DNA from: a virus
IMG/VR virus record: IMGVR_UViG_3300036846_000954
Span: 1-43,423 of that record
Reading direction: 5' to 3' (one strand)
Length of the DNA stretch: 43,423 bases
Shown here: positions 1 through 42,757 of the stretch, in pieces
Layout: each line of letters starts with the position of its first letter
Position numbering within the stretch: the stretch's first letter is position 1
Notes under the pieces: generated by a model
What the model was told of the DNA's origin: nothing
Seen by the model: only the letters and a program-made list of their open reading frames with translations
The model's database searches: none
Program-made: the position numbers and the translations under genes

Positions 1-171
1 GGCCGCGCGATCGCGCTCGGCCGCGGCCAGGTGCTGCACCACCATCTCGGCGTCGAGGCGCCAGGGCGGCGGCTTGATGCCGACCGCGGCCAGCATCTCG
101 CTGTGACTGAGGCCTCGGCCGCGCCAGAAGAGGTACTGCTCGACGGCAAGCTGGTATGCGTCATCGTCCAC
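1..171 (-). CDS. Small phage protein, 3' part cut by window start (allele A)
   Basis: This is the left-hand copy of the 73-aa gene at 42535-42756, truncated at the window edge. It starts with GTG, one base after the TGA of the VRR-NUC gene upstream. The visible 57 residues include the conserved block HSEMLAAVGIKPPPWRLDAE, identical in both copies. No known domain is recognised. It sits between the nuclease and the replication protein in the leftward early operon. If the genome is circular, its 3' end is the sequence just before 42586. Confidence 0.65.
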   Translation of the reverse strand, partial: MDDDAYQLAVEQYLFWRGRGLSHSEMLAAVGIKPPPWRLDAEMVVQHLAAAERDRAA

Positions 172-172
172 G

Positions 173-616
173 TCACGCAGCCCGTCCGATCCGGCGCTCG
201 GGATCGAGCCAATCGGCCGGTAGGCGTCCCCAGAGGATCAGGGTGTCGCGGACCTCGTCCCAGCTCTGGCACACCGCGTAGCGGACGCCGTGCTGCTGGC
301 AGCGGGCTTCGAAGGCGAGTTGCTCGTCGCTCTGCCTGCCGCGCTGGTGGCGGTCGAATAGCCGGCGCTCTGCCGGCCGCTTCAGCTCGATGCCGCCGCT
401 CCCGTCGCGCCACAGGAACAGCAGATCGGGCGCGCCAGGCGTGAGTTGGCCCAGGGCCTTGAGCTGGTGGATGATGCGCCGAGCCATGTCCTGCTCGGCC
501 TTGCTGCGGGCCGGTATCCAGATCCCGTTCGGGCTGCCGATCACCAAACCATCGAGCGGCGCATGCGAGAGGCGCGTCATGACCTCCCGCTGGAGTGCCC
601 GCTCAACTTGCCGCAT
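173..616 (-). CDS. VRR-NUC domain nuclease, allele A
   Basis: A 147-aa stand-alone VRR-NUC protein, a PD-(D/E)XK-type nuclease family found in many phages and in FAN1; phage members often act on branched DNA. The core is visible: APD (D64), ELK (E77, K79) and Q99, followed by the family's HGVRYAVCQSWDEVRDTL-like end. It is read leftward after the YdaS-like gene and before the 73-aa gene and the replication protein. A G-rich Shine-Dalgarno stretch precedes ATG 616. Allele B at 42758-43201 differs at 16 of 147 residues but keeps all the core residues, so both look functional. Substrate is inferred from the family only. Confidence 0.88.
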   Translation of the reverse strand: MRQVERALQREVMTRLSHAPLDGLVIGSPNGIWIPARSKAEQDMARRIIHQLKALGQLTPGAPDLLFLWRDGSGGIELKRPAERRLFDRHQRGRQSDEQLAFEARCQQHGVRYAVCQSWDEVRDTLILWGRLPADWLDPERRIGRAA

Positions 617-683
617 CCCCTGCCCCCCTCAGGTAAAAACCCTAGACGCCGGGTGTCACCTGCGTGTAACTCGCAGGGCGTAT

Positions 684-698
684 GTTGCTATTCGCAAC
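684..698. promoter_or_regulatory. Operator-like palindrome GTTG-N7-CAAC (site 1)
   Basis: TGTTGCTATTCGCAACA is a 17-bp dyad with 6-bp arms in the gap between the YdaS-like gene (ends 722) and VRR-NUC (starts 616). It belongs to the eight-member set described in the findings. It is conserved in the right copy (43269-43283) with one change in the spacer. No convincing sigma70 promoter was found for either direction here. Confidence 0.7.
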
Positions 699-721
699 AA
701 TGTTCTGGACGAGTGGCGGGG

Positions 722-952
722 CTATGCGGTAACCAAGTCGTGATGCGAGGTCTCAGGGGCGGGCGTCCAGACGTCCGGCCGGATCAGATGCAGTGGAATG
801 CCAAGCTCTTTGGAGATCATCCTGGCGCGGTGGACTGGGACGAGGGCGTGTTTCGTCCGCTTCCAGCCGCACACGGTCGACCAATGCACCCCGGCCGCAT
901 CCGCCAGCCGACCAATGCCCCCCGCGAGCTGCGCGAGATCATCGATGCTCAT
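722..952 (-). CDS. YdaS/Cro-like DNA-binding protein
   Basis: A 76-aa helix-turn-helix protein of YdaS/Cro type: GGIGRLADAAGVHWSTVCGW forms the first helices and turn, followed by VHRARMISKELGIPLHLIRPDVW, the usual ending of these repressors. It is transcribed leftward, divergent from the XRE repressor at 1041, the classic arrangement of a phage immunity switch. It probably represses the repressor promoter and opens the leftward early operon (VRR-NUC, replication protein and onward). The start at ATG 952 has little Shine-Dalgarno character, and no strong -10 was seen, so a short leader is possible. A second, cut copy lies at the right end of the window. Confidence 0.8.
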   Translation of the reverse strand: MSIDDLAQLAGGIGRLADAAGVHWSTVCGWKRTKHALVPVHRARMISKELGIPLHLIRPDVWTPAPETSHHDLVTA

Positions 953-1005
953 GGCAACGAGCCTGAGCCTGCGACATTGGCTGCGTCAAGCGCAAACGTT
1001 GCCAT
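951..1005. promoter_or_regulatory. Divergent repressor/Cro control region with 9-bp inverted repeat
   Basis: ATGGCAACG (951-959) and CGTTGCCAT (997-1005) are perfect inverted repeats, 37 bases apart, between the two divergent regulator genes. The arms contain the same GTTG/CAAC half-sites as the operator family but in opposite orientation and wide spacing. A TTGACG box on the minus strand (984-989) may serve the leftward promoter. Co-operative binding or looping by one of the regulators is an inference. Confidence 0.5.
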
Positions 1006-1040
1006 ACAGAATTTTGCATGTTGGAGAGGAGAACCCCGAC

Positions 1041-1538
1041 GTGACCGACGAGGAGGAGCGGCAAGAAAACCAGCTGCCAATCGATTTACTGCTGGACGAC
1101 AACCCCGAGCTGAGGTGTAGGTTGGGCCGTCACCTCGGCGGCATCCGCAAGCAACGTCAGATCAGCCAGGACGTTGCCGCAAGAGGGATCGGGATCTCCC
1201 GACCACATCTGTCGAACATCGAGCTAGGCCGATCGCGCACCAGCTGGGCAGGGCTGAAGAGCATGGCAGCGTATTACGAGCTCGGCATCCAGAACCTCAT
1301 CGGCGAATGTAAGTCGGCCGACTGGACCCGACGCGTGGCGATTGAGGCGAAGACCACGCCCCACCACGGCCACAAACCGGAAACGGCCAGCTCCGAGGCC
1401 GAGCTCGACAAGAAAAACTACGCGCCGTTCGAGCTCTTCCTGGTCACCTCCTGGCGGCTCCTGTCGAACCAGGACCGCGAGGAGATGATGCTGGAGATCA
1501 CCAAGCGCGTACTGCGCCAACAGGGACAGTCGGACTGA
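1041..1538 (+). CDS. XRE-family repressor (CI-like)
   Basis: A 165-aa protein. GTG 1041 is chosen because GGAGAGGAG lies about 10 bases upstream; longer in-frame extensions lack ribosome sites and run through the switch region. Residues ~32-90 form an XRE/HTH_3 domain (LGRHLGGIRKQRQISQDVAA, then GISRPHLSNIELGRS), followed by a linker and a C-terminal helical tail. There is no S24 peptidase motif, so it is not a LexA/CI self-cleaving repressor. Its place opposite the YdaS-like gene makes it the lysogeny repressor candidate and the likely binder of the GTTG-N7-CAAC sites. A near-site (GTTGGAGAGGAGAAC, one mismatch) overlaps its ribosome site at ~1020, hinting at self-control. Confidence 0.85.
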   Translation: MTDEEERQENQLPIDLLLDDNPELRCRLGRHLGGIRKQRQISQDVAARGIGISRPHLSNIELGRSRTSWAGLKSMAAYYELGIQNLIGECKSADWTRRVAIEAKTTPHHGHKPETASSEAELDKKNYAPFELFLVTSWRLLSNQDREEMMLEITKRVLRQQGQSD

Positions 1539-1560
1539 CCCTCTGTTCGATTTTGTTGCG

Positions 1561-1578
1561 AACCCCCTAGACGGGGTT
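1561..1578 (+). terminator. Weak hairpin after repressor gene
   Basis: AACCCC and GGGGTT pair around a 6-base loop just after the repressor stop, followed by only a short T run (TTTGTTG). It may end the repressor transcript weakly. It also sits just before operator site 2. Confidence 0.35.
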
Positions 1579-1579
1579 T

Positions 1580-1594
1580 GTTGACAGTGCCAAC
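1580..1594. promoter_or_regulatory. Operator-like palindrome (site 2), upstream of recombination operon
   Basis: TGTTGACAGTGCCAACA lies 30 bases before the 45-aa gene that opens the erf/exonuclease operon. TTGACA is contained in the site, and TTGCGA (1556-1561) with 17-base spacing would place a -10 hexamer over its start, so a bound repressor would block either promoter reading. The promoter itself is not certain. Confidence 0.65.
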
Positions 1595-1623
1595 ATGGCT
1601 CCCCACCCAAGACGGGGGCCGAA

Positions 1624-1761
1624 ATGCACATCGCTGCCGGTCTCGTTAACCTCCTGCGAACGGTGCAGGAGACCGGTCGACCGACGACCTACAATTCACG
1701 ATCGCTGATCGGTTTCGCCCTGGCGCTCCTCGGGCTCCTGGCGCTCGGGGTGCTGCTCTGA
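1624..1761 (+). CDS. 45-aa single-span membrane protein
   Basis: A short gene with ATG after GGGGGCC. The product has a polar N-terminal half and one C-terminal hydrophobic helix (LIGFALALLGLLALGVLL). Its TGA overlaps the ATG of the ERF gene (TGATGA), so it is translationally coupled to it and is the first gene of the recombination operon, 30 bases after operator site 2. No family is recognised. Host membrane targeting or superinfection exclusion are possible jobs but unsupported beyond topology. Confidence 0.6.
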   Translation: MHIAAGLVNLLRTVQETGRPTTYNSRSLIGFALALLGLLALGVLL

Positions 1762-2528
1762 TGAGCGATCAGCAGCTCGACCTCACACCCGGAGGCCCAT
1801 TCGAGGTTGTCCCCCGGAGCGAGGAGCGGACGCTCCTCGACATCATCGCCAGGGCCGCGAGTGATCCACAGACCGATGTGGATAAGCTCGAGCGGCTGAT
1901 GGCGTTGCACGAGCGCCACAAGACGCGCGAGGCCGAGATGGCTTACGCCGCCGCCCTCTCTGAGATGCAGCCGCTGCTGCCAGAGATCGAGGAGCAGGGC
2001 GAGATCCTCGACAAGCAGGGCGAGGTGCAGTCGACCTACGCCAAGTGGGAGGACGTGCAGCGGGCGATCAAGCCGATCTTGGCGGCGCACGGCTTCAGCC
2101 TCAATTTCGAGGTCGCGCGCGAGGAGGGTCAGATCGCCGTGACCGCGATCCTACACCATCGCGCGGGTCACTCGCAGCGCACCACCCTGCCGCTGCCGCT
2201 CGACACCAGCGGCAACAAGAACACGGTCCAGGCCTACGGCAGCAGCACCTCGTACGGCATGCGCTACACCGCCAGGGCGCTCCTCAATCTGACCTCCCGC
2301 GGCGCCGACGATGACGGTGTGGCCGGCGGCACGAAGCTGATCTCGGAGGGCGAGCGTGAGGCGCTGCAGGCGCTCGCCGACGTCGCGCAGGTCGACATGC
2401 GCCGGTTCTGTGCGTTCCTCAAGATCCCGAGCCTCGACCAGCTGCCGGCGCGGCGTTACCGGGTTGCCGAGCGCGCTCTGCAGGACGCTGCCGCGAAGCG
2501 GGAGGCGGCGCGAAAGGATCGCCCGTGA
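1761..2528 (+). CDS. erf: ERF-family single-strand annealing recombinase
   Basis: A 255-aa ERF superfamily protein. The family core spans ~60-195: AYAAALSEMQPLLPEI, YAKWEDVQRAIKPILAAHGF, a beta-rich region with HHRAGHSQ, and VQAYGSSTSYGMRYTARALL with the DDDG tail. ERF proteins form rings that anneal single strands during phage recombination and genome circularisation. The C-terminal part is charged and helical. It overlaps the exonuclease gene by four bases (GTGA), giving the usual annealase-exonuclease pair. Confidence 0.92.
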   Translation: MSDQQLDLTPGGPFEVVPRSEERTLLDIIARAASDPQTDVDKLERLMALHERHKTREAEMAYAAALSEMQPLLPEIEEQGEILDKQGEVQSTYAKWEDVQRAIKPILAAHGFSLNFEVAREEGQIAVTAILHHRAGHSQRTTLPLPLDTSGNKNTVQAYGSSTSYGMRYTARALLNLTSRGADDDGVAGGTKLISEGEREALQALADVAQVDMRRFCAFLKIPSLDQLPARRYRVAERALQDAAAKREAARKDRP

Positions 2529-3166
2529 TCCAGGTCCTCGATATGCCGCAGGGCTCGCCGGAATGGTATGAGGCGCGCCTCGGCCTGCCGACGGCGTCGG
2601 AGTTCGGCGCCATCCTAGCGAAGGGCCAGGGCAAAGTCCGGCGCGGCTATCTATGCCGCCTAGCCGCTGAGCGGATCCTCGGCGAGACGCAGGAGACTTT
2701 TTCCAACTACCATTTCCGGCGCGGCAAGGAGCTCGAGGCCGAGGCGCGCGAGCTCTATGCCTTCCTCAATGAGGTCGAGCCGACGATCGTGGGCTTTGTC
2801 CGCAACGAGATCGCCGGCTGCAGCCCCGATGCGCTGATCGGCGACGACGGCATGCTCGAGATCAAGACAAGATTGCCGGCGCTGATGGTCGACGTGCTCG
2901 CCCAGGGCCATGTGCCGGCCGAGCACAAGGCCCAGCTCCAGGGCGGCCTGTGGATCACCGAGCGGTCCTGGGTCGACTTCGTCGCCTACTGGCCGGGCAT
3001 GCCGCTGTTTGTCGTCAGGGTCGATCGCGACGCGGAGTACATCGAGACCCTGGCTAACGAAATCACCAAATTCGCCGCCGAGCTCGAGGAGATCGTGCGC
3101 CGGATCGGGATGACGCCCAGGGCGAGCGTGCTCGACATGCTGTTGCGGAGCGAGGCCGATGGCTGA
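2525..3166 (+). CDS. YqaJ/lambda-type 5'-3' exonuclease
   Basis: A 213-aa PD-(D/E)XK exonuclease of the YqaJ/lambda Exo family, which digests one strand of duplex ends to feed the annealase. Visible motifs: GSPEWYEARLGLPTASEFG near the N-terminus, RRGKELEAEAR at ~66-75, CSPDAL (D102) and LEIKTRL (E112, K114). The start is GTG at 2525, overlapping the ERF stop by four bases. Length is typical. Together the two genes form a complete recombination module under operator site 2. Confidence 0.92.
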   Translation: MIQVLDMPQGSPEWYEARLGLPTASEFGAILAKGQGKVRRGYLCRLAAERILGETQETFSNYHFRRGKELEAEARELYAFLNEVEPTIVGFVRNEIAGCSPDALIGDDGMLEIKTRLPALMVDVLAQGHVPAEHKAQLQGGLWITERSWVDFVAYWPGMPLFVVRVDRDAEYIETLANEITKFAAELEEIVRRIGMTPRASVLDMLLRSEADG

Positions 3167-3653
3167 CCCGCTCTGGTATCGATACAACGGTGCCGTCATG
3201 GTGCCGATGCGGCCCGACGAGGCGGCGCGGCAGTTCATTGTCGACGGGCGCTACCTGCTCGAGGCGCACCACGCCCGCGCGCATGCCAGGCACCGGGCCT
3301 ATTTCGCGGCGCTGCACGAGGCCTGGGGCAGCATCGCCACCGACGATTTCCCGACCTCGGAGCATCTGCGCAAGTTTGCGCTGATCAAGACCGGCTGGCG
3401 GCAGGAGCGGGTGCTGGCCTGTGAAACCCGCGAGCGGGCCGAGCGCACCGCTGCGTTCGTGCGCGGCCTGGACGATTACGCGATCGTCACCACCCACGAC
3501 GCCCTGGTGCGCGTCTGGACCGCGCGATCGCAGAGCTACAAAGCCATGGGACGCGACGACTTCAACCGATCGATGGACGACGTTCTCAACTATGTCGCCA
3601 GCCTCATCGGGGTCAGCAAAGAGACCCTCGAGGCCCAGGGAGAGATGGCATGA
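3159..3653 (+). CDS. DUF1367-like phage protein
   Basis: A 164-aa soluble protein. The block HRAYFAALHEAWGSI...LRKFALIKTGWRQE and the end DDFNRSMDDVLNYVASLIGV resemble the layout of DUF1367 phage proteins, which usually lie among phage recombination genes. The match is by pattern only. It overlaps the exonuclease by eight bases and the next gene by four (ATGA). A role in recombination or replication is inferred from position. Confidence 0.7.
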   Translation: MADPLWYRYNGAVMVPMRPDEAARQFIVDGRYLLEAHHARAHARHRAYFAALHEAWGSIATDDFPTSEHLRKFALIKTGWRQERVLACETRERAERTAAFVRGLDDYAIVTTHDALVRVWTARSQSYKAMGRDDFNRSMDDVLNYVASLIGVSKETLEAQGEMA

Positions 3654-3916
3654 GCGAGATCACTGAGCACCACGTCGAGATCGACCTCTACCGTGTCATC
3701 GCCTTGTGGGTCATCGGCTACCACTACGACCAGCCGCAGCACCCGGATCCCGCCGAGCTGGCGGCGGCCATCAAGAAGGACATGGAGAGAGGGGACGCCG
3801 AGCAGTCGCATTTACTGGCCGCCGCCAGCGCGGTCACCCGCTACATCTGCGAGCAATTTCTCGCCGAGCAAGCTGGCGTCCAGATCCGGTCGATAAGCGA
3901 GCCCGGTCATGCCTAG
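3650..3916 (+). CDS. Unknown 88-aa early protein
   Basis: No family recognised. It is acidic and helical, with a hydrophobic-aromatic patch (IALWVIGYHYD) that is too broken by polar residues to be a clear membrane span. It is coupled to its neighbours by short overlaps at both ends (ATGA at 3650, eight bases at 3909), so it is almost certainly translated as part of the recombination operon. Confidence 0.6.
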   Translation: MSEITEHHVEIDLYRVIALWVIGYHYDQPQHPDPAELAAAIKKDMERGDAEQSHLLAAASAVTRYICEQFLAEQAGVQIRSISEPGHA

Positions 3917-4463
3917 GGTCTGCGGCGCCTGCACGCTGTGCTGCAAGCTGCTACCGGTGCGTGAGTTGCAGAAGCCGGCGAACACCCGCTGCGAGCACCA
4001 GAGCGCCGCCAGGGGCTGCCGGATCTACCGTCGCCCCGGCTTCCCGATGAGCTGCGCGGTGTGGTCGTGCCGCTGGCTGAACGGGCACGGCACCGCCGAC
4101 ATGCTGCGGCCCGACCGGGTCGGCTACGTGCTCGACGTCGTGCCCGACGCCGTGCAGGCAACGAATAATGAAACCGGCGAAAAATACATGGTCACGGTGA
4201 TCCAGGTCTGGGTCGAGCCTGGCTGCGATCCGCTCCAGGACCGGCGGCTCATGCGGTATGCGGAGCGCCAGGCCGAGGAGGGCATGGCGCTGCTGCTGCG
4301 CTACGGCAGCAGCTCGGCGGTCGCGGTCTTCCCGCCGAGGCTCGCCACCGACGGCGAGTGGCATGTCGTCGGCGGTGACGGCATGCAGCGGGTCGAGACC
4401 AGGACCGGCAACATGATCCTCGACGCTCTCAGTGCCCCCAGGGGGACCGATGACGGACGATAG
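3909..4463 (+). CDS. YkgJ-like cysteine-cluster protein
   Basis: 184 aa with an N-terminal cysteine cluster (C5, C8, C11, C12, C28, C37, C49, C54) in the pattern CGACTLCCKLLPV ... CRIY..RP ... CAVWSCRWL. This is the layout of the YkgJ family, annotated as zinc- or iron-chelating proteins, though such proteins are common in bacteria and only occasionally phage-borne. The C-terminal two thirds are beta-rich without cysteines. Possible roles are metal or Fe-S handling; none is shown. It lies in the operon between unknown genes and could be a recently acquired cargo gene. Confidence 0.7.
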   Translation: MPRVCGACTLCCKLLPVRELQKPANTRCEHQSAARGCRIYRRPGFPMSCAVWSCRWLNGHGTADMLRPDRVGYVLDVVPDAVQATNNETGEKYMVTVIQVWVEPGCDPLQDRRLMRYAERQAEEGMALLLRYGSSSAVAVFPPRLATDGEWHVVGGDGMQRVETRTGNMILDALSAPRGTDDGR

Positions 4464-4755
4464 CGGTGCGCCTTACAGGGTCTGGCAGTTCTTCCCCGAC
4501 GACTGGCACGAGTGCGTCGGCGAGGATCTCGACGCACAGCATGCGGTCGAGCTGGCGAAGCGCATGACCGAGACCCTGGGCGCCAGGATCGGCACCACCC
4601 GGCGCGTCATCATCGAGGACCGCTGGGGCTACACCTCATTCGAGTGGATCCACGGCAAGGGCGTGACCTACCCGACGCCGGAAATGCGGGCGCAAACCTC
4701 TGCAAACATTGCACAATTGGATGGCGAACCGACCGAGGAATTTCCGCCAGCGTGA
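4450..4755 (+). CDS. Unknown 101-aa early protein
   Basis: Start ATG 4450 is preferred over an upstream in-frame start because CAGGGGGACCG precedes it at good spacing. It overlaps the YkgJ-like gene by 14 bases. The product has WQFFPDDWHECVGEDLDAQHAVELAKRM and RRVIIEDRWGYTSFEW segments, a small alpha/beta layout often seen in phage early genes. No function recognised. Confidence 0.6.
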   Translation: MTDDSGAPYRVWQFFPDDWHECVGEDLDAQHAVELAKRMTETLGARIGTTRRVIIEDRWGYTSFEWIHGKGVTYPTPEMRAQTSANIAQLDGEPTEEFPPA

Positions 4756-4936
4756 TGTCACGGCTTTAGTCAAAGCCGTTAAAAACGCTGGAGAAAATGT
4801 CGCACGCGTGGAAGTTGACGGAGAGGGAAAGCTGGTCATATATGTTGGTGGTAGCAACAAGCCGGCTACCAGCAACCGATACGAGGAGAACCTCAATGCC
4901 AACCAAGCACTACGTGCAAAGTTTCGACGGTCGTAA
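4721..4936 (+). CDS. Small integrase-linked protein, possible excisionase/partner
   Basis: A 71-aa basic protein beginning MANRPRNFRQRDVTALVKAV, then a VARVEVDGEGKLVIYVG strand pair. Small proteins of this shape often lie next to tyrosine integrases in alphaproteobacterial prophages. ATG 4721 is used; a TTG four codons upstream is possible. It overlaps the previous gene by 35 bases and the integrase by 41 bases. The integrase promoter and operator lie inside its 3' half. A recombination-directionality role is an inference from location and size. Confidence 0.55.
   Translation: MANRPRNFRQRDVTALVKAVKNAGENVARVEVDGEGKLVIYVGGSNKPATSNRYEENLNANQALRAKFRRS
4815..4858 (+). promoter_or_regulatory. Integrase promoter with operator (site 3)
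   Basis: TTGACG (4815-4820), 17 bases, then ATATAT (4838-4843; TATATG with 18) form a good sigma70-type promoter. TGTTGGTGGTAGCAACA follows directly (core 4844-4858), covering the expected transcription start, 38 bases before the integrase ATG. The site lies inside the coding region of the preceding small gene. This suggests that integrase is repressed by the same regulator as the other sites. Confidence 0.65.
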
Positions 4937-6056
4937 CTACCTGCGGTTCAAGCAGCAGACCCGCGTGCGGCTGCCGGACGGCCCGCTCGCCGCGGTGCTG
5001 AAGACGCGCGAATACAAGGACGCGATCGCCGCCGCCAAGGCGGCCGACAAGCCGATCGAGCGCAAAAAAAAATCGCTCGGCGGCGGCCTCACAATCCGTG
5101 AGGTCGTCACCGAGCATATGGCGAGCGTGTACTGGCGCGAGAACATAAGCCACGGCACTCGCGTGACCCGCGGCTACGCCCTGATGGGCTGGGTCGACGG
5201 TCGCCACAACCGCGCGGGCGAGCTGGTGCGCGTCGGCCAGGGGGATGCATCGATCTACGATCTGACCCCGGAGCTACTCAGCCGAGAGCTGGCCGAGCGC
5301 CAGGCCGAGGACGGGCATTGGGCCGCGAACGCCTGGCTGGGCGCGGTCAGTGTGATGCTCAAGGAGCGCAAGCAGGCCTTCAGGATCAAGCGCGACTTCG
5401 ACCCCACCTTCGGGGTGAAGGCCTTCGGGCAGAAGAAGCAACGCACCGCCGACGACGGGTTCAAGACGCTGCCGCCGGAACTGCTGCAGCAGTACCTCGA
5501 CTATTGGCCCTATGCCTCGCCACAGCGCATCGCCGGCCTGATGCTGTACGTGACCGGCGCCGCCTGCTGCGACGTGATCAGGCTCTGCCTGTCGGACATC
5601 AAGGACGGCTTCTTCCAGGGCAAGCGACTGAAGACCGGTGTCGACTTCGTCACCGAGCAGACACCCGAGCTGATCGCCGAGATCAAGGCCGCCGGCATCG
5701 AGCTCGGGCCGATCGTCCGGCGCAAACCGCGCCGGGGGCAGGCTCTCGGCAAGGCATTCTCGCGGCTCCCGATCGAGGACGACCCGGAAGGGAATGCGGC
5801 CAGGGCGCACGCAGATGGTCGCCTGTTCTCTGAACAGTTCCGTGGCTGGCTATGGCGTGCCGGCGTCCCTGTCGGCTACGGCGCCCACAGCTTTCGCAAG
5901 CGGGCGGCCTGCGATGACGCGGTCGAGCGCGGCATGGACCCGACGTGGCTCAAGGCGAAATACGGCTGGAAGCAATCGACCGAGGTCGATCTCTATACCG
6001 AGAAGTTCAACCGCCTGCGGGTGATGCAGCTACGGAGCGGCGTGACAGTCGCCTGA
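4896..6056 (+). CDS. int: Tyrosine recombinase (integrase), first catalytic Arg absent
   Basis: 386 aa from ATG 4896, which has GAGGAGAA five bases upstream; the longer in-frame ORF lacks this. Residues ~55-130 hold an SAM-like core-binding domain and the C-terminal half the catalytic domain. HSFR (H331, R334), W358 in GWKQ, and nucleophile Y367 (DLYTEKF) are all in place. The box I motif, usually TGxRxxD, reads TGAACCD (around residues 220-226), so the first catalytic arginine is alanine. That would normally abolish strand cleavage unless another residue substitutes. It would integrate the phage through attP, possibly the dyad region right behind it. Confidence 0.88.
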   Translation: MPTKHYVQSFDGRNYLRFKQQTRVRLPDGPLAAVLKTREYKDAIAAAKAADKPIERKKKSLGGGLTIREVVTEHMASVYWRENISHGTRVTRGYALMGWVDGRHNRAGELVRVGQGDASIYDLTPELLSRELAERQAEDGHWAANAWLGAVSVMLKERKQAFRIKRDFDPTFGVKAFGQKKQRTADDGFKTLPPELLQQYLDYWPYASPQRIAGLMLYVTGAACCDVIRLCLSDIKDGFFQGKRLKTGVDFVTEQTPELIAEIKAAGIELGPIVRRKPRRGQALGKAFSRLPIEDDPEGNAARAHADGRLFSEQFRGWLWRAGVPVGYGAHSFRKRAACDDAVERGMDPTWLKAKYGWKQSTEVDLYTEKFNRLRVMQLRSGVTVA

Positions 6057-6081
6057 TCAGAAAACTGTCACGACCCTAAAA

Positions 6082-6168
6082 ACCTGACCAAAGTCTTTGA
6101 TAAACCTCACTTCCGGAAGTCGCAGCGGTAATTCCGGAAGTGAGGAAAATCAAGGGGTTTGGTCAGGT
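6082..6168. repeat. 37-nt-arm inverted repeat behind integrase (attP/arm site or hairpin candidate)
   Basis: Left arm 6082-6118 and right arm 6132-6168 match as an inverted repeat at 30 of 37 positions around a 13-base loop. Perfect blocks are ACCTGACCAAA, TTGAT and CCTCACTTCCGGAA. A further GTCACG/CGTGAC pair flanks it (6068-6073, 6172-6177). It starts 26 bases after the integrase stop, where attP often lies. It could be an integrase core/arm site, a recombination-directionality binding site, or a transcript-end hairpin; the mismatched blocks resemble a crossover spacer design. Confidence 0.7.
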
Positions 6169-6183
6169 CGCCGTGACGATCTA

Positions 6184-6230
6184 GACACCAACGCCGGCGG
6201 CGGCAACGCTACAGCCGGCGTCTTGTTGTC
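6184..6230 (+). terminator. Candidate terminator hairpin after integrase
   Basis: ACGCCGGC (6191-6198) pairs with GCCGGCGT (6214-6221), with outer GACA/TGTC support, followed by the T-rich TCTTGTTGTC. It is a moderately convincing terminator for the integrase transcript, since the T run is interrupted. Confidence 0.45.
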
Positions 6231-6279
6231 AGGCAACGGCCTCCTTATGATGGTCCTGGCAACGAACCAAGAGAGCGTG

Positions 6280-6495
6280 ATGAAGCTGGTCGTGACCGGC
6301 GAGATCCCCGACGAGCTGGCGCAGCACTTCCACCAATGGATCCGCGATTACGACGCGGCCCACCCTGGCTGCCATTTCGAGGTGGTCTTCGATGCGGCGG
6401 GGACTGACCGTGCGCGAGGCGGTCGCGGCGATGCAGGTCGACCCACCGCTGCCGTTCCAAACCTTGATCGAGCGAGCAACACGAGGAGGCGATGA
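6280..6495 (+). CDS. Small phage protein, probable frameshift near 6400
   Basis: As read, 71 aa from ATG 6280, ending in ATGA overlap with the next gene. The first 40 residues (KLVVTGEIPDELAQHFHQWI ... HFEVVFDAAG) look natural but the rest is Arg/Gly-rich and out-of-frame in character. Removing one G from the GGGG run at 6399-6402 continues as LTVREAVAAMQVDPPLPF and runs to 6535, a layout common in small phage proteins. Either a one-base indel (real or an assembly error) or an unusual true end. Function unknown. Confidence 0.5.
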   Translation: MKLVVTGEIPDELAQHFHQWIRDYDAAHPGCHFEVVFDAAGTDRARGGRGDAGRPTAAVPNLDRASNTRRR

Positions 6496-6743
6496 GGTTG
6501 CCCTGGAAGAAGCCCCAGAAGAACCCCTGGGATGACGAGCTCGAGCTGTCGGCCTGGGCGCCGCTGCCACCGACCAACTACAACATGGTGCTCGGGATGC
6601 TCACCAGCCTCTCCCAAGCGCAGTGGATGCTGGGCGAGCAGCAGGTCAAGATGGCGCGGGCACAAGGGATCGCCAGCATCGTATGGCTGATCCTGGCGCT
6701 GCTGAATTTGTACTGGATGAGCCGAGCGCTGGGGTGGTGGTGA
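6492..6743 (+). CDS. 83-aa C-terminally anchored membrane protein
   Basis: Starts at ATG 6492 with GAGGAG upstream. A polar N-terminal half (WKKPQKNPWDDELELSAW) is followed by an amphipathic stretch and one hydrophobic helix near the C-terminus (IASIVWLILALLNLYWM). Topology resembles small phage membrane proteins of unknown role. It overlaps the next gene by the bases TGATG, so the genes are coupled. Confidence 0.65.
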   Translation: MRLPWKKPQKNPWDDELELSAWAPLPPTNYNMVLGMLTSLSQAQWMLGEQQVKMARAQGIASIVWLILALLNLYWMSRALGWW

Positions 6744-6961
6744 TGCCGTCGTGGTACACTGTGTCCATGACGCAACGTGAAACCGTCGCTCGGGCGATCT
6801 ACATGACACACTGGTCGCTGCCAGAAGAGAGCCTGCGCGGGCTTGACCGGCACATGACGCCGCCATGGGAGAACGTCAGCAGCGCGGTGCGCGAGTGGGT
6901 GCTCGCACAAGCCGACGCCGCAATCGAGGCCATGATTGCCAGTCAGGATCGGGCGGCTTAA
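6743..6961 (+). CDS. Unknown 72-aa phage protein
   Basis: Start ATG 6743 overlaps the preceding stop; an internal ATG at 6767 (MTQRETVARAIY) is an alternative start. The remainder, MTQRETVARAIYMTHWSLPE ... AIEAMIASQ, is helical and typical of short alphaproteobacterial phage proteins. No function recognised. It is the last gene of the integrase-side cluster. Confidence 0.55.
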   Translation: MPSWYTVSMTQRETVARAIYMTHWSLPEESLRGLDRHMTPPWENVSSAVREWVLAQADAAIEAMIASQDRAA

Positions 6962-7308
6962 TCTCGCCACGTATCTCGCGAAGAGCGACGGCTCGCAGCC
7001 TGCCGGTGAAAAGGCGCCATTCGACCCGGTGGCGGATGGCTTAATCAGCCCATCGAGATGCGCGCGTAGGGCAACCATCAAGGGGCGGGATCTTCACCCG
7101 AAAGGGGCTTCCGACCGCTGTACGTCGATGCCAGCTAGACTACGGACAACGCCACCACGAACCTCACCTACGGGTCCGGCCCCAGTCACGACGCGCGAGC
7201 GCCTCAAAGCCGGGTGAGCGGGTTGGTCCAACCGATATTTGGACAGTGGCGCTATACCCCTGCTGGCCGCCTCTCCGTGAGGTGAGGTGTGCGGAAGGCG
7301 GCTACGCC
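6962..7308. other. Gene-poor spacer
   Basis: About 350 bases with no convincing gene; the open frame 6936-7217 has no ribosome site and unnatural composition. It holds a short palindrome GGTTGGTCCAACC (7221-7233) and a GC-rich stem GCCGCCT/AGGCGGC (about 7267-7302). Around 7100-7165 there is a weak tRNA-like look on the minus strand that does not fold properly. This could include host-derived att sequence, but I see no proof. Confidence 0.5.
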
Positions 7309-7337
7309 TTGACGTGTTGTATCTAGCAACAATATCC
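7309..7337 (+). promoter_or_regulatory. Promoter with operator (site 4) for 7375 gene
   Basis: TTGACG (7309-7314), 17 bases, then ATATCC (7332-7337). TGTTGTATCTAGCAACA (core 7316-7330) fills the spacer between -35 and -10, the typical place for a repressor operator. It precedes the small membrane protein gene by 45 bases. Confidence 0.65.
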
Positions 7338-7374
7338 GCTAAACCGCGCCAAATTTTGCGCGCGAGGCTAGGTG

Positions 7375-7611
7375 ATGCTGTTCTTCGTCTATTGCTGGAT
7401 CATCTTGGTGATCGGAGCGGCCATAGCGTTGCCTCAGCCTTTTGGGATCATGGCCGCGATTGGCATTGTCGCAGGGTCCGCGATCCTCTTCGGCTTGGTC
7501 TCGATCATCGATGGCTTCGTCTACTGCAACAGGCCGGGAACCGCGCCGACGGGCAGAGCGCCGGGAGAGAATGTGCGCGGCACCGAGCGCAAGTACCTGG
7601 AACCCAGGTAA
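7375..7611 (+). CDS. Two-span membrane protein under operator control
   Basis: 78 aa from ATG 7375 (a GTG just before is possible); AGGCTAGGTG precedes it. Two hydrophobic helices (LFFVYCWIILVIGAAIAL; IMAAIGIVAGSAILFGLVSI) and a basic polar tail. The gene stands alone, has its own promoter-operator, and its last 91 bases overlap the convergent 3' end of the internal virion protein gene at 7521. Position and topology fit an exclusion, holin-like or lysogenic-conversion protein; none is shown. Not recognised as a family. Confidence 0.6.
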   Translation: MLFFVYCWIILVIGAAIALPQPFGIMAAIGIVAGSAILFGLVSIIDGFVYCNRPGTAPTGRAPGENVRGTERKYLEPR

Positions 7612-9434
7612 CCAGCAGCCAACGGCGTAGCCCCCATCGCGCCTCCCGCGAGCAGGGCTGTAGGCAAGCTATAACCTTTAGCCAGCGCACCGCCGGCCGC
7701 GCCCATCGCCAGGCTAGGCACGCTGAGTAACGAGGCTACCGGGGCGGTGTTGCTCGTGTTGGCAAATCGCGCAGTGTCCCGCATCGAGCTTCCAACGGTT
7801 CGCAAATCGGCGATGCGCCCTGCGACGCCAGGGTCAGCACCGTAGAGCGCGTCAAACGCCTGCGGTGATAGCCTGTTCGTGTTGGTCAGGAATGTATTCG
7901 GCGAGACCATCGGCCCCATGTTGGGTGCCGCACGCTGACCCGGCGTCGCCAGACCCATCAGCCGCAAATGCGCTGCCGCTAGCTCGTCAGCGGCGCCGGG
8001 CATCTCATCGCGGATCGCCTGCAGCCCTGTGCCACCACTCGCAGAACCAGACATCGCCCGCGTATAGGCCGCCTCTGGAGTGATCATTCCTGGGCGGGGA
8101 GCGAGGTACTTTGAGACCGTATCATCGATAAAGCTATGTCCGGCTCGGGTCAGGTTGTTCGCCGCGTTATAAGCATCGACAGCATCCGATCCAAGCGGAT
8201 GCACCGCGCCTCTGAGATCTTCGCTCAGTGCCCCATAAATCCGGCGCAACTCACCGTAATTTGTGTCGCCGATCAGATTTGTATCGGTGAGCATGTCGCC
8301 GATCCGGGTGCGCATGCCCCGCACGGTATCCCAATCGAGCGGCCGGCCAATCCGGGCATCCGAGATCAGCGCATCGAGCAGATTTCGCGACAATGGCGAC
8401 TGTAAAACATCCGCCGTTGCCGGGGCGCCGGCCATCTGGCTGCGGACCTGGTTGAGCGTTCTGGCGTAGTTGGTGACCGGCACTGGAGTGGCGCCAGGAA
8501 CCAGCATGTCGACATTGTTCCAGGCCTGCCTGCTATTCGCTCTGAACTGATCCATCCAGTTGCCAGAAGCCACCTGCAGGGCTGTACCGGCTTCCTGCGG
8601 ATTGGTCGACGCGCCAAGGTCGGCGGCTGTGTTCTCGAGCTGATTGCCCCACTGGTCGAGATTGCGAGCCTGAGCGGCGCGGTAACCACCTGAGCCAGGC
8701 AGCTTTGTCACATTCGCAGCAACCAGCTGGGTCAAAGGCCCAGCATTAACATCCTGCCGCATCGGCGTCATGCCGAGCCGCGTCATTGCATCGGTTGTGG
8801 GCGACGTCGCCCTGGGGCCGGCAAGGCGACCAGTGGCTAGACCGGTTGCCATTGAGACGGCGGGCCTGACCCAGCCCGGCGCGTTGGGAGCGACCTCCGA
8901 CACGGCCTGCCCGGCACCGCCGCTGGTCATGCCGGCAATCATCCGAGGAACCGCGGTCTCCGCGCCGCCCACGAGCGAAGGGATAGCCTGACTAAGCGCC
9001 TCCTGCCCGATCCGGCCGGCGGCGGTCTGTGGCACGTATGGCCCGCGCTCCGGGTTGCCAACGGCCGCGCGCATCGCGTCGATGGCGGAAAAGATGCCGC
9101 TGTTGATCTCCTCGGGCGAGTAGGTGTGGCGGGTGAGGAAGCCTGGCGGCCCCATCTGCGGTGGCCCTTGGTAAGGCGTCATTGGCTGCCCGGTCACGTC
9201 GAGGCCGCCATACCCTGGGGCGGCGTCGCCAAGGCCGGCCACGACGTGCGGTAGCCCACCGACGTTGCCGACGCCCTTGAGGATACCGGTCGCCGCGTTC
9301 GTGGCAGTGTCGTTGATCTGCCCCCGCCAGCTCTCATGGTAGAGGTGCTGCTGGGTGGCAGCATTGATCTCGTCGTCCGACATATTGTCGGGGAAGTTGA
9401 TCGTGTCGCCTCCAGGCAGATCGACTGTCGTCAT
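7521..9434 (-). CDS. Internal virion/DNA-ejection protein (last late gene)
   Basis: 637 aa from ATG 9434, which overlaps the preceding stop by four bases. The N-terminus carries DTINFPDNMSDDEINAA, a short motif common at the start of phage ejection and tail proteins. The middle is helical and polar; the C-terminus has Ala/Gly-rich hydrophobic stretches (LLSVPSLAMGAAGGALAKGY, LLAGGAMGATPLAAGYLG) that could cross a membrane. As the last gene of the leftward structural operon after two other large internal proteins, it matches the third ejection protein of podoviruses. Similarity is by position and composition, not by a recognised domain. Confidence 0.65.
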   Translation of the reverse strand: MTTVDLPGGDTINFPDNMSDDEINAATQQHLYHESWRGQINDTATNAATGILKGVGNVGGLPHVVAGLGDAAPGYGGLDVTGQPMTPYQGPPQMGPPGFLTRHTYSPEEINSGIFSAIDAMRAAVGNPERGPYVPQTAAGRIGQEALSQAIPSLVGGAETAVPRMIAGMTSGGAGQAVSEVAPNAPGWVRPAVSMATGLATGRLAGPRATSPTTDAMTRLGMTPMRQDVNAGPLTQLVAANVTKLPGSGGYRAAQARNLDQWGNQLENTAADLGASTNPQEAGTALQVASGNWMDQFRANSRQAWNNVDMLVPGATPVPVTNYARTLNQVRSQMAGAPATADVLQSPLSRNLLDALISDARIGRPLDWDTVRGMRTRIGDMLTDTNLIGDTNYGELRRIYGALSEDLRGAVHPLGSDAVDAYNAANNLTRAGHSFIDDTVSKYLAPRPGMITPEAAYTRAMSGSASGGTGLQAIRDEMPGAADELAAAHLRLMGLATPGQRAAPNMGPMVSPNTFLTNTNRLSPQAFDALYGADPGVAGRIADLRTVGSSMRDTARFANTSNTAPVASLLSVPSLAMGAAGGALAKGYSLPTALLAGGAMGATPLAAGYLGSRYLRSVPRTFSPGALPVGAVPGLLQ

Positions 9435-12142
9435 TGTGGCACCGCCCGCCCCAGCTGGGGATCCCATCTAAGCTGCCGACCGCCTCCGCTGGTGGGAGGC
9501 GGCGCGCCAGGCAGTCCCTTGATCGTGCCGGCGAGTTCCTCGCGAGCGCCCTGGACGAACTCTTCCAGCGGGTTCTCTCGCATCCAGGCCAGCTTAAAGC
9601 TGTCGGGATTGACCCAGCGCGAGCCATCGGTCCCGACCATGGTCTGGGCGTGGTTCCAGTCCTGCGAGAGCGACTGGAGCTGACGCACCTGACCGATGTC
9701 GGCAGACAGCAGGTTGAGGTTCGCCTCGGGTTGGCTGCCGACATCCTCGCCGGCCTTGGAGTTGATCTGGAACTCGCCACCAGTAAACTTCTTATTCACT
9801 GCCGCCAGCTGGTTTAGGGTCTGCTTGTAGTTGGCATGCATCGCGGTCTGAACCGCCGCCAGATCGGCGACGCTCTGCGGTGGCTTAATGCCCAGGCGTT
9901 GGGCGAGCGCCTGCCACATGCCCTGCACCTCGGCCGACTGCTCCGCCCAGGTGCCGGTCTGGATCGTCTTGAAGGCGTCTCGCAGCATATTGAGGTTTGT
10001 CTCAGCACGCTGCGCCGCGAGGCCGGCATCGGCCAGCTCGCCGCTCTCCTTGATCCATTCGGACTGCGACGCACTGTAAGTCTTAAGATCGGGCGTGCGC
10101 GCCTGCTGGGTGATGGCTGGTATTTTGGTCTGATAGCCGCGGCTGGCATTGTCCGGCGACGGCATTGGCTTGCCAGGGTCGACGCCGCCTTGTTCTGGCG
10201 GCAGGACACCAGCCCTGATCGGCTCCCCTGGGATGCCGACCCCGCGACCGAGTTCGGCGCCGATCTCCTGCGCCTTGGTCTGGCCCGGCGACAGCGAGGC
10301 CTGCCCCATATCGGTCTCGCTTATCGTTTGACCACCTACTGTCCAACGACCTGCGTAATTGTGCATGGTCCCATCGGGAGCAACGCGGGTCCGCGTTCCA
10401 GTAAAGGTCTGGTCGAGCGGGTTGTAATAGAGACCACCCCCGCCGCGAATGTTTGCCGGCTCCAGTTGTTTTGTTGCGACACCATAGGGGAATTTTACGT
10501 TCTCCTGCGCCTGCGCGGTCGCCTGCGCGGTCGCGACGGTTATCGGGTAGGAGGCGATCTTCTGCTCGCTTTCCGGCACCGGCAGACCCCAGGTCGAATT
10601 GTACTGGACGATCTGCTTCGCCAGGGCGATGCGCTCCGGGCTCGGTGCCCCGGGGATCGCGGCTGGGGTCGGCGTGGGAATGCGGGCAAAAGGCGCTGCG
10701 GCGCCCCCAGGAGCGCCTGAAGGCGGCGGGGCTACCTCAGGTGCCCCCGGCTGCGTCATCAGCCCTGGTGGGCCTCCTGGGGGCGCAGGCTGTCCGACCC
10801 GCGGCACGTTCGGCGGTAGCCCTACGGGGGGCGGCGGGATGTTCTGTGATGGCAGGGCCGGGGCGGCAGGCGGCAGCGGTGCAACGGCGCGCTGCTGGGC
10901 CATGGTGTTGGCGAGAGAGCCGCCCGTCAGGAGACCCGGCGGCGCTACGTCACCGCCAGCCTGGGGCGGGAGTGGCGCGGGGGCGCCGCCGCCAGCGCCA
11001 ATGACCCGACCGGCACCGACCTGCGGCCCTGGGGGCGCGGCGGCGGGCGGCTGGTTGAGGAGACCGCCCGGTGGACCGAGCCGGCCGGCGAAGTCGGGAA
11101 CCTGCGGCAGCGCGCCGGGACCAGGGGCTGCGGCCGGCACGGGCAACGGCGCATTCGCGCCCAGCGGTCGCCGGCCGAGCGCCGCGGCGGCGGTGCCGGC
11201 GATTTCCGGCGCGCCGGTCGCCCCGGCGGGAGCGGGCGCGATCGCGGCCTCGGTCGATCCAGGCCCGCCGGGCACCTTGATGACATCGCCGCGAGCGTAG
11301 GCTTCCCGCAGGGGTCCATTGAACGGCAGCCAGTCACTCAGCCCGGGATTGACGGCCTTCATCGCCTTGGCGACCGCGACCTGCGACGCCGCGGAGAAGT
11401 CAGGCTGCATCTGGCCGGACGCGATCAGGGGCGGGGCAAATTTGTCCCAGTTCGTGCGGGTGATCTGGAAGTAGCCGGCCGCCGTCGAGCGGCCATACTT
11501 GGTCGGGATGCCTTCCCACATCGGGAAGCCGTTCTGGTTGAGCTGGTAGCCCGAGAGATCGTGGTCACCCGTGCCGACGTTGGGCCGGTAGCCGCTCTCG
11601 TGATAGGCGATCAGGTTGAGCTGCGGGTCGCCGAAATCAACGATCTCGCCCTTGGCCTTGTCGAGCAGCTTGGGCGCGGGTGTGGTGCCGGGCGGCCCGG
11701 CAGCAGCGCCGCCAGCGCCGGCCCTGTCCATGGCCGCGGCCTGCGCCTGCATCCCCATCGACGCCATGCGCGCCTGGATCAACGCCCGCTGGGTCTCGGC
11801 CTGGACGCCGTAGAGCTGGCCCTGGGCTGCCTGGGTGCGGGCGGCGATCGTCGGGTCATTCGCCGTCGCCGCGGCGTTGGCGGCGGCGCCGATCGTGGCG
11901 CCAAACGGGACGCCGCCCCGGTACGGCACCGGCATGGCGCCCTGACCAAAGGCATTCGCCATCGCCGCCAGGGAGCGGTTGCGGAAGGCGTCGATCGTCG
12001 CCTGGTCGGTGAGCTGGCCGCCATACATCGCCGCCGGGCTGTACCCGCCACCGGAGAGGAGGCCGCCGAGGAAGCCGGGGCTCTGCGGCGCTTGCGGCTG
12101 CGGGATCGGTGGGGGCTCGAGGAGGCCAGGGGGATCAGCCAT
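9431..12142 (-). CDS. Large virion protein with lysozyme-like domain
   Basis: 903 aa. Residues ~170-290 hold a peptidoglycan hydrolase-like domain: IAYHESGYRPN (E182 the candidate acid), then RSTAAGYFQITRTNWDKF, as in phage lysozyme/transglycosylase folds (GH104-like STAAGRYQ motif). Residues ~300-510 are a long Pro/Gly/Ala linker. The C-terminal ~350 residues are helical. The likely job is local cell-wall digestion during DNA ejection. No separate endolysin was found in the window, so it may be the only muramidase. It overlaps both neighbours by a few bases. Confidence 0.72.
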   Translation of the reverse strand: MADPPGLLEPPPIPQPQAPQSPGFLGGLLSGGGYSPAAMYGGQLTDQATIDAFRNRSLAAMANAFGQGAMPVPYRGGVPFGATIGAAANAAATANDPTIAARTQAAQGQLYGVQAETQRALIQARMASMGMQAQAAAMDRAGAGGAAAGPPGTTPAPKLLDKAKGEIVDFGDPQLNLIAYHESGYRPNVGTGDHDLSGYQLNQNGFPMWEGIPTKYGRSTAAGYFQITRTNWDKFAPPLIASGQMQPDFSAASQVAVAKAMKAVNPGLSDWLPFNGPLREAYARGDVIKVPGGPGSTEAAIAPAPAGATGAPEIAGTAAAALGRRPLGANAPLPVPAAAPGPGALPQVPDFAGRLGPPGGLLNQPPAAAPPGPQVGAGRVIGAGGGAPAPLPPQAGGDVAPPGLLTGGSLANTMAQQRAVAPLPPAAPALPSQNIPPPPVGLPPNVPRVGQPAPPGGPPGLMTQPGAPEVAPPPSGAPGGAAAPFARIPTPTPAAIPGAPSPERIALAKQIVQYNSTWGLPVPESEQKIASYPITVATAQATAQAQENVKFPYGVATKQLEPANIRGGGGLYYNPLDQTFTGTRTRVAPDGTMHNYAGRWTVGGQTISETDMGQASLSPGQTKAQEIGAELGRGVGIPGEPIRAGVLPPEQGGVDPGKPMPSPDNASRGYQTKIPAITQQARTPDLKTYSASQSEWIKESGELADAGLAAQRAETNLNMLRDAFKTIQTGTWAEQSAEVQGMWQALAQRLGIKPPQSVADLAAVQTAMHANYKQTLNQLAAVNKKFTGGEFQINSKAGEDVGSQPEANLNLLSADIGQVRQLQSLSQDWNHAQTMVGTDGSRWVNPDSFKLAWMRENPLEEFVQGAREELAGTIKGLPGAPPPTSGGGRQLRWDPQLGRAVPQ

Positions 12143-12581
12143 AGGGGTTGCCTGTCAGCAGCGCCGCCAGCGCCCGCTTCGGATCGAGGGGGTGCCGCGT
12201 GTAGAGGTTGTTGTACGGGTTGTAGCCGCCAAGCGCGGCGGCATGCGCCGGGATCGCTGGCGCGAGGTTGGGCCGCGCCTGCGGCATCGAGAAGCCCTTC
12301 GCCGCATCGCCCACGCCCTTCAGAGCGTCGCCGCCGAGGCTCGCCGTGATCTTGTCCCACAGGCTCTGCGGCTGCTGCGAGCCGGTGTAGTAGCCGAGCT
12401 GGTTGACCGTCTCGGCCTGGGCCGGCGAGAGCCCGCTATAGCCGGCCGGCTGCTGCAGCTGCGTGCCGGTCGGCAGGCTCATGGTGGGCTGGGGATAGAA
12501 CCCCTGCTGCTGGATCATCGCGATCTGGTCGGGCGTCAGGCCCGCCGGGTAGCCGAGGAGGCCAGGGATGTCGTCTGCCAT
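12135..12581 (-). CDS. Unknown 148-aa structural protein
   Basis: Pro/Gln/Gly-rich; it begins with DDIPGLLGYPAGLTPDQIAM and ends with GYNPYNNLYTRHPLDPKRAL. The neighbour's N-terminus (PPGLLEPP) has a similar GLL motif, and the 31204 protein also uses PPGLLGGP, so these may be assembly-related tags. It sits between two ejection-type proteins in the late operon. No function recognised. Confidence 0.6.
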   Translation of the reverse strand: MADDIPGLLGYPAGLTPDQIAMIQQQGFYPQPTMSLPTGTQLQQPAGYSGLSPAQAETVNQLGYYTGSQQPQSLWDKITASLGGDALKGVGDAAKGFSMPQARPNLAPAIPAHAAALGGYNPYNNLYTRHPLDPKRALAALLTGNPYG

Positions 12582-12584
12582 GGA

Positions 12585-14300
12585 TTAGAGCCCGAATAGG
12601 CCGGATAGCGGGCCGGCCTTGCCAAACAGGCTGGCGAGCCCGGTCACGCCACCGAGGACGTTGCTGGCGACGTTCTGGTAGTAGGGCGTGGTCTGGCTGC
12701 TGGTCTGAGAGCCGGCGTTCGGCGCACCGACGAGAGCGCCATAATTCTGTAGCGGCGACCAGACCGAGTTGAAGGCAGCCGACAGGTCGCCCAGCGGGAA
12801 ATTCGCCAGATCCGGCGCCATCTGCGCCAGGCTGCCCAGCACCGTCTGACCGGTGTTGGCGCCCTGCATGGCACTGTTCAGCATGGTGCCGGCGGTCGTG
12901 TAACCGGCATTTGTGGCATTGGCGCCGCCGCTCAGGGCCTGGACTAGACCCTGCAGGCCGCCGAGGCCGAGATTGCCGCCCGCGCCGAACGCCGTGTTGG
13001 CCGCGCCCAGCCCCGTGCCGGCGAGACCCGACAGTGCATTCGCCCCGGCATTGATCAGGTTGCCGCCGGTCCCGTAGGCATTGTTGAGGAGACCGCCGCC
13101 GGTCGTGTAGGCGTTGTTGAGCGCGCTGCCGAGGGTCGAGTAGGCGCTGTTGAGGAGGTTGCCACCGATGCCGTAGGCGCTGCCGAGCAGGTTGCCGGCG
13201 CCCGTGACCCCTGCCTGGGCGAGCGAGCCGGCGTTGGACAGCGCGCTCGTGATGTTGCCGATGCCGGTATTGTAGGCCGAGCCCAGCGCCGAGCCGGCGC
13301 CGAGCATGGCATTAAGACCGGTATTGTAGGCGTTGTTGACGATGCCCGAGGTCGTCGTGCCGAGCGCCTGCCCGAGATTGTATTCGTCCATGCTCTGGCG
13401 GTTCGCCAGCGCACCCGAGCCGTAGCGCCCGGCCGCCTCGGCGGCGCCCGTCGTGCCCGGCGCCGTCGCGGTCATGTACTGGTTGACCAGCGGCTGGGTC
13501 GCGGCCTGGATCACCCCAGGCAGGGCCGGGTTGCGGCTGGGGTCGAGGTACTGGCCGTGGGCCAACCCCATCAGGCTGTCGTAGATCGGGTTGCCGGGGA
13601 TCGCCATGCCGGCATTCCCCATCAGGCCCTGCTCGGCCGGGATGCCCGCCGACATCGCGCTCGGCGCGAGGCCGCCGATCGTGCCGATCGCGTTGTTGGC
13701 ATAGCCCGCCAGGTTGTCGGCCGCGCTTTGGCCGAAACCGCTCAGGGTGCTGATCGCGTTGTTGCCGAGGCCGGACAGCGCGCTGATCGCGTTGCCGCCG
13801 GTCCCCGCGAGCGTGTCGTAGAGGCTGTAGCCTGCACCCAAAAGACGCGATCCGGCGCCGCCAGTGTCCAGGAGGTCGGACATAAACGGCGCGACATTGC
13901 CGTAGGCGTTGCTGGCGGCGCTCAGAAAGTCCTGACCATAGGCCTGCCCGGTAGCGATCGCGCTCGGCGCGTATCCGCTGAGGGCGCCGATCTGCGGCCC
14001 GCCGGCATAGCCCGATTGCGGGAAGGCGCCGCCATAGATGCGCGAGAGGATGTCCATCGCGCCCGGCACCAGGCCGGTGCTGCCGGGCGATGCGGCGGCG
14101 GCATTGCCACCCGCGAGCCCCTGCAGCGCAGTGAGGAAACTGCCGCCCGCAGCTGATGTCGGATCGTAGCTGCCGGTGGTCGGGTTTATCCCGGCCTGGC
14201 CGGCCCCGGCGCCCCACAATCCCGTCAGGAACGGCAGCTGGGCGTTGGCGACCGGGTTGTTGACGGTCGTGGTCGAGGTGCTGGGCGTGGATTTCGTCAT
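12585..14300 (-). CDS. Repetitive internal/ejection protein
   Basis: 571 aa, rich in Gly, Ala, Asn and Ser. The region ~300-440 is built of short repeats around (N/S)AYxTGxxLLxxA, about 11-22 residues apart, predicted to form long amphipathic helices. The N-terminus (STTTVNNPVANAQLPFLTGLW) is like those of phage DNA-injection proteins. The C-terminus is hydrophobic (VLGGVTGLASLFGKAGPLSG). The likely role is a channel across the periplasm during ejection. DNA repeats follow the protein repeats at ~13050-13330. It is separated from the GNAT-like gene by three bases. Confidence 0.62.
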   Translation of the reverse strand: MTKSTPSTSTTTVNNPVANAQLPFLTGLWGAGAGQAGINPTTGSYDPTSAAGGSFLTALQGLAGGNAAAASPGSTGLVPGAMDILSRIYGGAFPQSGYAGGPQIGALSGYAPSAIATGQAYGQDFLSAASNAYGNVAPFMSDLLDTGGAGSRLLGAGYSLYDTLAGTGGNAISALSGLGNNAISTLSGFGQSAADNLAGYANNAIGTIGGLAPSAMSAGIPAEQGLMGNAGMAIPGNPIYDSLMGLAHGQYLDPSRNPALPGVIQAATQPLVNQYMTATAPGTTGAAEAAGRYGSGALANRQSMDEYNLGQALGTTTSGIVNNAYNTGLNAMLGAGSALGSAYNTGIGNITSALSNAGSLAQAGVTGAGNLLGSAYGIGGNLLNSAYSTLGSALNNAYTTGGGLLNNAYGTGGNLINAGANALSGLAGTGLGAANTAFGAGGNLGLGGLQGLVQALSGGANATNAGYTTAGTMLNSAMQGANTGQTVLGSLAQMAPDLANFPLGDLSAAFNSVWSPLQNYGALVGAPNAGSQTSSQTTPYYQNVASNVLGGVTGLASLFGKAGPLSGLFGL

Positions 14301-14303
14301 CGG

Positions 14304-14756
14304 CTAATCCTTCAGCCGCCGCACCAGCGCGACACCCGCGATGGCGAAACCGAACCGCGACCAGCCCTTGCGGTCCCAGGTACAGAGATCGACGCACTGG
14401 AGCGCCTCGGCCTGGGCGTCGAGCGCATCGAGCAGCGGATGGATCCAGCGCCTGAGGCCGGTGCCGGCGCAGAACAGGATCTCGAGCACGCGGCAGCGCG
14501 GGAATTGCCGGACCTCGGTCACCGTCGCGGCGACGATCGCGCCGCGGTCGCGGACGACGAAGATCGTCACGCGCCCGATCATCGCGAGCTGCAGGAGATC
14601 GATCGGCTCGTAGCCGCGCACCCGGTCGGTGGCGCGCTTCAGCATCGGCTCGAGGATCGGCCAGCAGCGGGCGAGCTCGTCCAGCGGCGGCGTCGAGATC
14701 GCGATGTCAGGCAGCTCGCCGACCGGCGGCGACGCCGTTAATCCGTGCATATCCAT
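14304..14756 (-). CDS. GNAT-like internal virion protein
   Basis: 150 aa with an acetyltransferase-like fold pattern often found beside podovirus tail genes: DELARCWPILEPMLKRATDR, AAATVTEVRQFPRCRVLEIL, then CVDLCTWDRKGWSRFGF. In known phages such proteins are virion-associated and many lack clear catalysis. Here the usual acetyl-CoA loop is weak, so I would not claim enzyme activity. Confidence 0.6.
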   Translation of the reverse strand: MDMHGLTASPPVGELPDIAISTPPLDELARCWPILEPMLKRATDRVRGYEPIDLLQLAMIGRVTIFVVRDRGAIVAATVTEVRQFPRCRVLEILFCAGTGLRRWIHPLLDALDAQAEALQCVDLCTWDRKGWSRFGFAIAGVALVRRLKD

Positions 14757-14764
14757 GAGGGGCC

Positions 14765-18748: not shown

Positions 18749-18755
18749 GGGCCCC

Positions 18756-28406: not shown

Positions 28407-28422
28407 GTTTTTTGGCGAACTG

Positions 28423-28461
28423 TTGACAATGGACTTGCGCCGATGTGTTGGCGAAGCCAAC
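28423..28461 (+). promoter_or_regulatory. Rightward promoter with operator (site 6)
   Basis: TTGACA (28423-28428) with a -10 expected at 28446-28451; TGTTGGCGAAGCCAACA (core 28447-28461, 7-bp arms, the most symmetric of the set) covers this -10. It drives the 28488-30827 operon and lies opposite TerL, so it may also act on late transcription. Confidence 0.62.
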
Positions 28462-28487
28462 ATGAGCGATCAGCGTGGGAGCTGCGG

Positions 28488-32714: not shown

Positions 32715-32716
32715 CC

Positions 32717-42756: not shown

Positions 42757-42757
42757 G

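Follow-up and report, generated by a model that had tools for sequence, protein, structure and literature searches.

The stretch of DNA analyzed here, referred to as the window, comprises all 43,423 nucleotides of IMG/VR virus record IMGVR_UViG_3300036846_000954 and carries, at its two ends, differing copies of a locus that encodes a VRR-NUC nuclease. How a single contig comes to begin and end in this way, and what genome lies behind it, are the questions addressed in this study. We hold it to be very probable that the contig represents one full turn of a phage genome of 42,584 bp that is circular or circularly permuted and bears one version of the locus (allele B, positions 42586-43423), with a tail bearing the other version (allele A, positions 1-839) standing in front of it.

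The phage and its genome

The phage has a portal of SU10 type (PF23899, 587 bits), and sequence matches place a terminase large subunit gene at 27072-28463 and a major head protein gene at 20147-21100. Many relatives were found in IMG/VR by their terminase. Scanning bacterial genomes for the portal protein revealed no related prophage, megablast of window positions 1-20000 against GenBank phages gave no match, and a tRNA search of the phage found none.

A long, strong hairpin at 6066-6178 lies directly behind a 419-amino acid frame (4797-6056); about 40 pairs make up its extended stem, and its minimum free energy is -62.2 kcal/mol (z-score -7.7, with no shuffle as stable). It had no match in Rfam, and positions 2500-9000 of the related contig G002 contained no similar inverted repeat. 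Two large adjoining minus-strand frames of 648 and 903 amino acids (7521-12142) had no Pfam match, nor did the 903-amino acid frame match any PHROG; by position, they probably encode tail or virion proteins. An unusual cargo gene, a 332-amino acid minus-strand frame at 31818-32816, matches a PHROG radical SAM domain (E 5e-16) and overlaps a similarly long plus-strand frame at 31842-32858.

Alignment of the contig ends

Positions 1-839 and 42586-43423 align over their full length and differ by 66 substitutions and a gap of one base, in agreement with the roughly 67 differences that an earlier sequence-only reading had counted by hand. The similarity of the two ends is far above chance (BLAST E = 0), and self-BLAST of the window (E<=1e-5) found no further direct repeat beyond this pair, the only other match being a palindrome at 6082-6168. 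On the left, positions 1-106 are identical to 42586-42691, a stretch of 106 bases that is 21 short of 127. On the right, positions 713-839 are identical to 43297-43423, a stretch of exactly 127 bases bounded by the 1-base deletion and the contig end. Identical ends of about 105 and 119 bases had been reported previously; the first figure stands and the second was too short.

All end differences fall in the block between these stretches (positions 107-712, counterpart 42692-43296), which holds 67 differences in 606 positions. The block spans the entire minus-strand VRR-NUC frame of 147 codons (173-616 in allele A, 42758-43201 in allele B), together with 66 bases behind it and 96 before it. The frame contains 54 of the 66 substitutions, with eight more downstream (107-172) and four upstream along with the gap (617-712). 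The divergence, which the earlier reading had placed almost wholly in VRR-NUC, is not limited to that gene and crosses both of its borders. Because the allele A tail stands ahead of positions 713-839, an exact repeat of the first and last bases is absent, and the exact end overlap of the window is 0.

Closing the circle

The last 127 bases of the window recur at 713-839 and close the sequence on itself, giving one full turn of 42,584 bp (713-43296) that carries allele B. A second, independent contig, IMGVR_UViG_3300036832_000352 (27,816 bp), aligns to this closed circle from its first base to its last, ungapped and with four mismatches. The predicted join lies inside that contig, 3,399 bases from one end, and is crossed uninterrupted. 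The contig has a single copy of the locus, identical to allele B at 838 of 838 positions, and continues past window position 840 for 24 kb. Three of its four mismatches to the window cluster within 19 bases (42057, 42060 and 42075); this cluster may be another small population variant site or an assembly error in either contig.

Closure also mends the genes that are cut at the contig ends. On the right, the gene for an HTH DNA-binding protein (798-1538, plus strand; Pfam HTH_31, 34.9 bits; start codon checked on both sides) starts at 43382, the equivalent of 798, and runs off 43423. On the left, the allele A counterpart of a small 73-amino acid frame behind VRR-NUC (42535-42756, minus strand; no PHROG match) runs off position 1. 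In the circle, both are restored. The sequence-only reading had proposed cut genes at both ends, a circular genome of about 42.6 kb, and two alleles of one locus at the contig ends; the first two proposals are borne out by these results, and the third by the single copy in the independent contig and in the relatives described below. We consider it almost certain that the real genome is circular, 42,584 bases long, and holds the locus once. A circular assembly is compatible with either a covalent circle or circularly permuted linear DNA and does not tell them apart.

Related contigs

Relatives of the phage close as circles of 42-44 kb with exact end overlaps of 127 bp (G004, G009, G014, G015 and G016), 124 bp (G005), 99 bp (G002) or 141 bp (G008). 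A single VRR-NUC copy is found in G002, G003, G004 and G006, at position 40,610 of 43,523 in G002, 19,307 of 44,173 in G004 and 9,221 of 46,749 in G006. Since these positions differ, the point at which contigs of this phage group begin is arbitrary, and VRR-NUC marks no physical end.

Two relatives have imperfect ends. The ends of G007 (43,377 bp), in which a search for VRR-NUC found no match, share 126 identical bases, one mismatch and 22 further identical bases. Those of G006 (46,749 bp; 1-336 against 46444-46749) share 105 identical bases and then diverge without returning to a long identical stretch, at a locus other than VRR-NUC. Both contigs are probably complete circles hidden by strain variation, and since their imperfect ends lie at other loci, the effect is not special to VRR-NUC.

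Assembly graph models

Metagenome assemblies at JGI have been run in metaSPAdes with k = 33, 55, 77, 99 and 127 (PMC11584781) or with k from 21 to 127 (PMC12697132). Given these settings, the exact 127-base stretch at the right end and the end overlaps of the relatives, the contig end is most simply read as a graph vertex, where the path re-enters a k-mer already used, and we infer that the record was made by metaSPAdes with k = 127.

Graphs of 127-mers were built for three models: a lasso, a closed bubble and a tandem duplication. In the lasso model, circle B (713-43296) and a fragment (1-839) gave exactly two edges, one of 839 bp (1-839) and a self-loop of 42,711 bp (713-43423). Joined at their common 127-mer, these edges reproduce the window exactly, and among the three graphs the lasso is the best fit.

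Under the lasso model, the B genome would form a self-loop in the 127-mer assembly graph, and reads of another, probably rarer, strain with a different segment of about 0.6 kb around the VRR-NUC gene would add a side branch. This branch would merge with the loop at the 127 bases of 713-839 and would die out 21 bases before rejoining it on the left. The allele A path presumably ends early, as that of a rare variant would, and a coverage dead end is the sole account we offer for the 106 bases. Output of branch and loop together as a single linear contig would explain why the locus is present twice with different sequences.

Of the alternatives, the nearest is a closed bubble, in which two strains differ in the segment and the assembler walks the circle once, taking each allele; only the shape of the graph differs from the lasso. 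The same facts fit both, including the pattern of identical, divergent and identical sequence. However, in the 127-mer graph, two circles that form a closed bubble produce edges of 859 and 860 bp and have 127 bases in common on each side, and the window has only 106 on the left. We therefore consider the closed bubble unlikely. The earlier proposal, an assembler walking a bubble in a circular graph twice, is essentially right and holds for the circle and the two alleles. It is refined in the shape of the graph: with a left identical stretch that falls 21 bases below k, a dangling tail is preferred to a closed bubble, and equal read support for both alleles is consequently no longer expected.

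A real duplication, tandem or dispersed, would place two diverged VRR-NUC copies in one molecule and would suit the finding that both copies are intact genes. This is very improbable. The independent contig is single-copy and runs from allele B straight into window position 840 and 24 kb further, and the relatives are single-copy as well. A perfect tandem would moreover form a 966-bp loop, with its first 127 bases, those of the end of B, expected ahead of position 1, where they are absent.

The location of the copies at both contig ends could also suggest a linear phage genome whose genuine terminal repeats have diverged from each other. Replication and packaging keep the two copies of a classical phage terminal repeat identical. 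The two copies here differ at 67 positions, the independent contig has no end at the locus and crosses the join uninterrupted, and the contigs of relatives begin at other points with respect to VRR-NUC and have end overlaps of k-mer lengths. Like the sequence-only reading, we set such repeats aside, and we regard them as scarcely credible. Least credible of all is a diversity-generating retroelement, in which one copy would serve as the template and its counterpart would be the variable repeat that accumulates mutations. Differences packed densely into a block between two otherwise near-identical copies would suit it, but the counts of adenine (8 of 66 differing sites in A, 11 of 66 in B) and thymine (21 of 66 and 7 of 66) reveal no strong focus on adenine in either strand. 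Transitions and transversions number 32 and 34, and the differences favor third codon positions with a dN/dS of about 0.22. The tandem duplication and the drifted terminal repeats were accordingly rejected on the join and the graph, and the retroelement, as far as adenine bias goes, on the base composition and codon positions of the differing sites.

Alleles A and B of the VRR-NUC gene

Both copies score above the cut-off of 23.8 bits for Pfam VRR_NUC (PF08774), with 29.1 bits for A and 25.1 bits for B. Both genes are intact, and their proteins are 89% identical. Substitutions are split 14/10/30 over the codon positions, and a dS of 0.34 and a dN of 0.075 underlie the dN/dS ratio given above. 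Judging by these comparisons, purifying selection acts on both intact alleles, so A is probably the version of a co-resident strain, and probably of the rarer one. When the differing sites were polarized with G002, the base common with G002 was kept by A at 33 sites, by B at 23 and by neither at 10; with similar counts of change on each side, neither allele is degraded or hypermutated.

Relative to G002, allele B is 27-28% divergent in each flank and equally so in the middle, which rules out inherently conserved sequence as the reason for the identical flanks. Alleles A and B thus have flanks common by recent descent and a different middle. On the right, the identity of the flank is in part a selection effect, since paths in the graph merge only where k bases agree. 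The 106-base left flank is no selection effect under the lasso model, and at the divergence of the middle it would arise by chance with a probability of about 4e-6. As the block that is 11% divergent sits between flanks that are not inherently conserved, this segment of about 0.6 kb looks like an exchange between related phages, and it constitutes weak evidence for allele exchange at VRR-NUC. Allele A itself may have arisen by homologous exchange of a short segment. A protein search for allele A elsewhere returned only allele B and relatives of 67-76% identity, and two exact A-specific strings had 0 matches in IMG/VR, so that allele A was found in no other IMG/VR record.

Genes at 1761-3653 encode, by sequence matches, an Erf-like annealing protein, a RecE-like exonuclease and a protein weakly resembling NinB/Orf, and these proteins could perform a segment exchange. 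It is conceivable, if rather improbable, that the VRR-NUC segment is an allelic cassette swapped among co-resident strains by short-tract homologous exchange, perhaps via the phage's own Erf and exonuclease (1761-3166), with the nuclease selected by hosts or rival phages and the rest of the genome near-identical.

Significance and comparison with known assembly effects

The significance of these results is mainly a database correction, and the biological residue is the segment of about 0.6 kb, 11% divergent between identical flanks. An exact end-repeat test would overlook the complete circular genome of 42,584 bp behind this record, which is 839 bases too long and counts one gene twice. The signature, in which the last k bases of a contig recur a few hundred bases inside its start with a diverged copy of the end ahead of them, could recover complete phage genomes that are filed as linear.

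The doubled end is an ordinary, already known kind of assembly effect. Relatives with exact end overlaps (127 bp in G004, G009, G014, G015 and G016; 99 bp in G002) belong to the same phage group, are similar in size and were closed by k bases. In contrast, the window has no exact end overlap of its own, and an exact end-repeat test misses it. Like G006 and G007, the window has a start and an end that overlap with differences between identical stretches, although the overlaps in those two contigs are shorter and at other loci, and G006 lacks a second long identical stretch. The COBRA study describes contigs that break where the graph offers multiple paths, leaving end sequences of maxK length, with within-population variation among the simulated causes (PMC10914622). 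As in those breaks, the window ends in exactly a k-mer (127) that recurs in the assembly, and the cause would be variation among close relatives in the sample; unlike them, the second occurrence of the k-mer is internal to the contig itself (713-839) rather than at its other end, because a variant tail is joined ahead of it.
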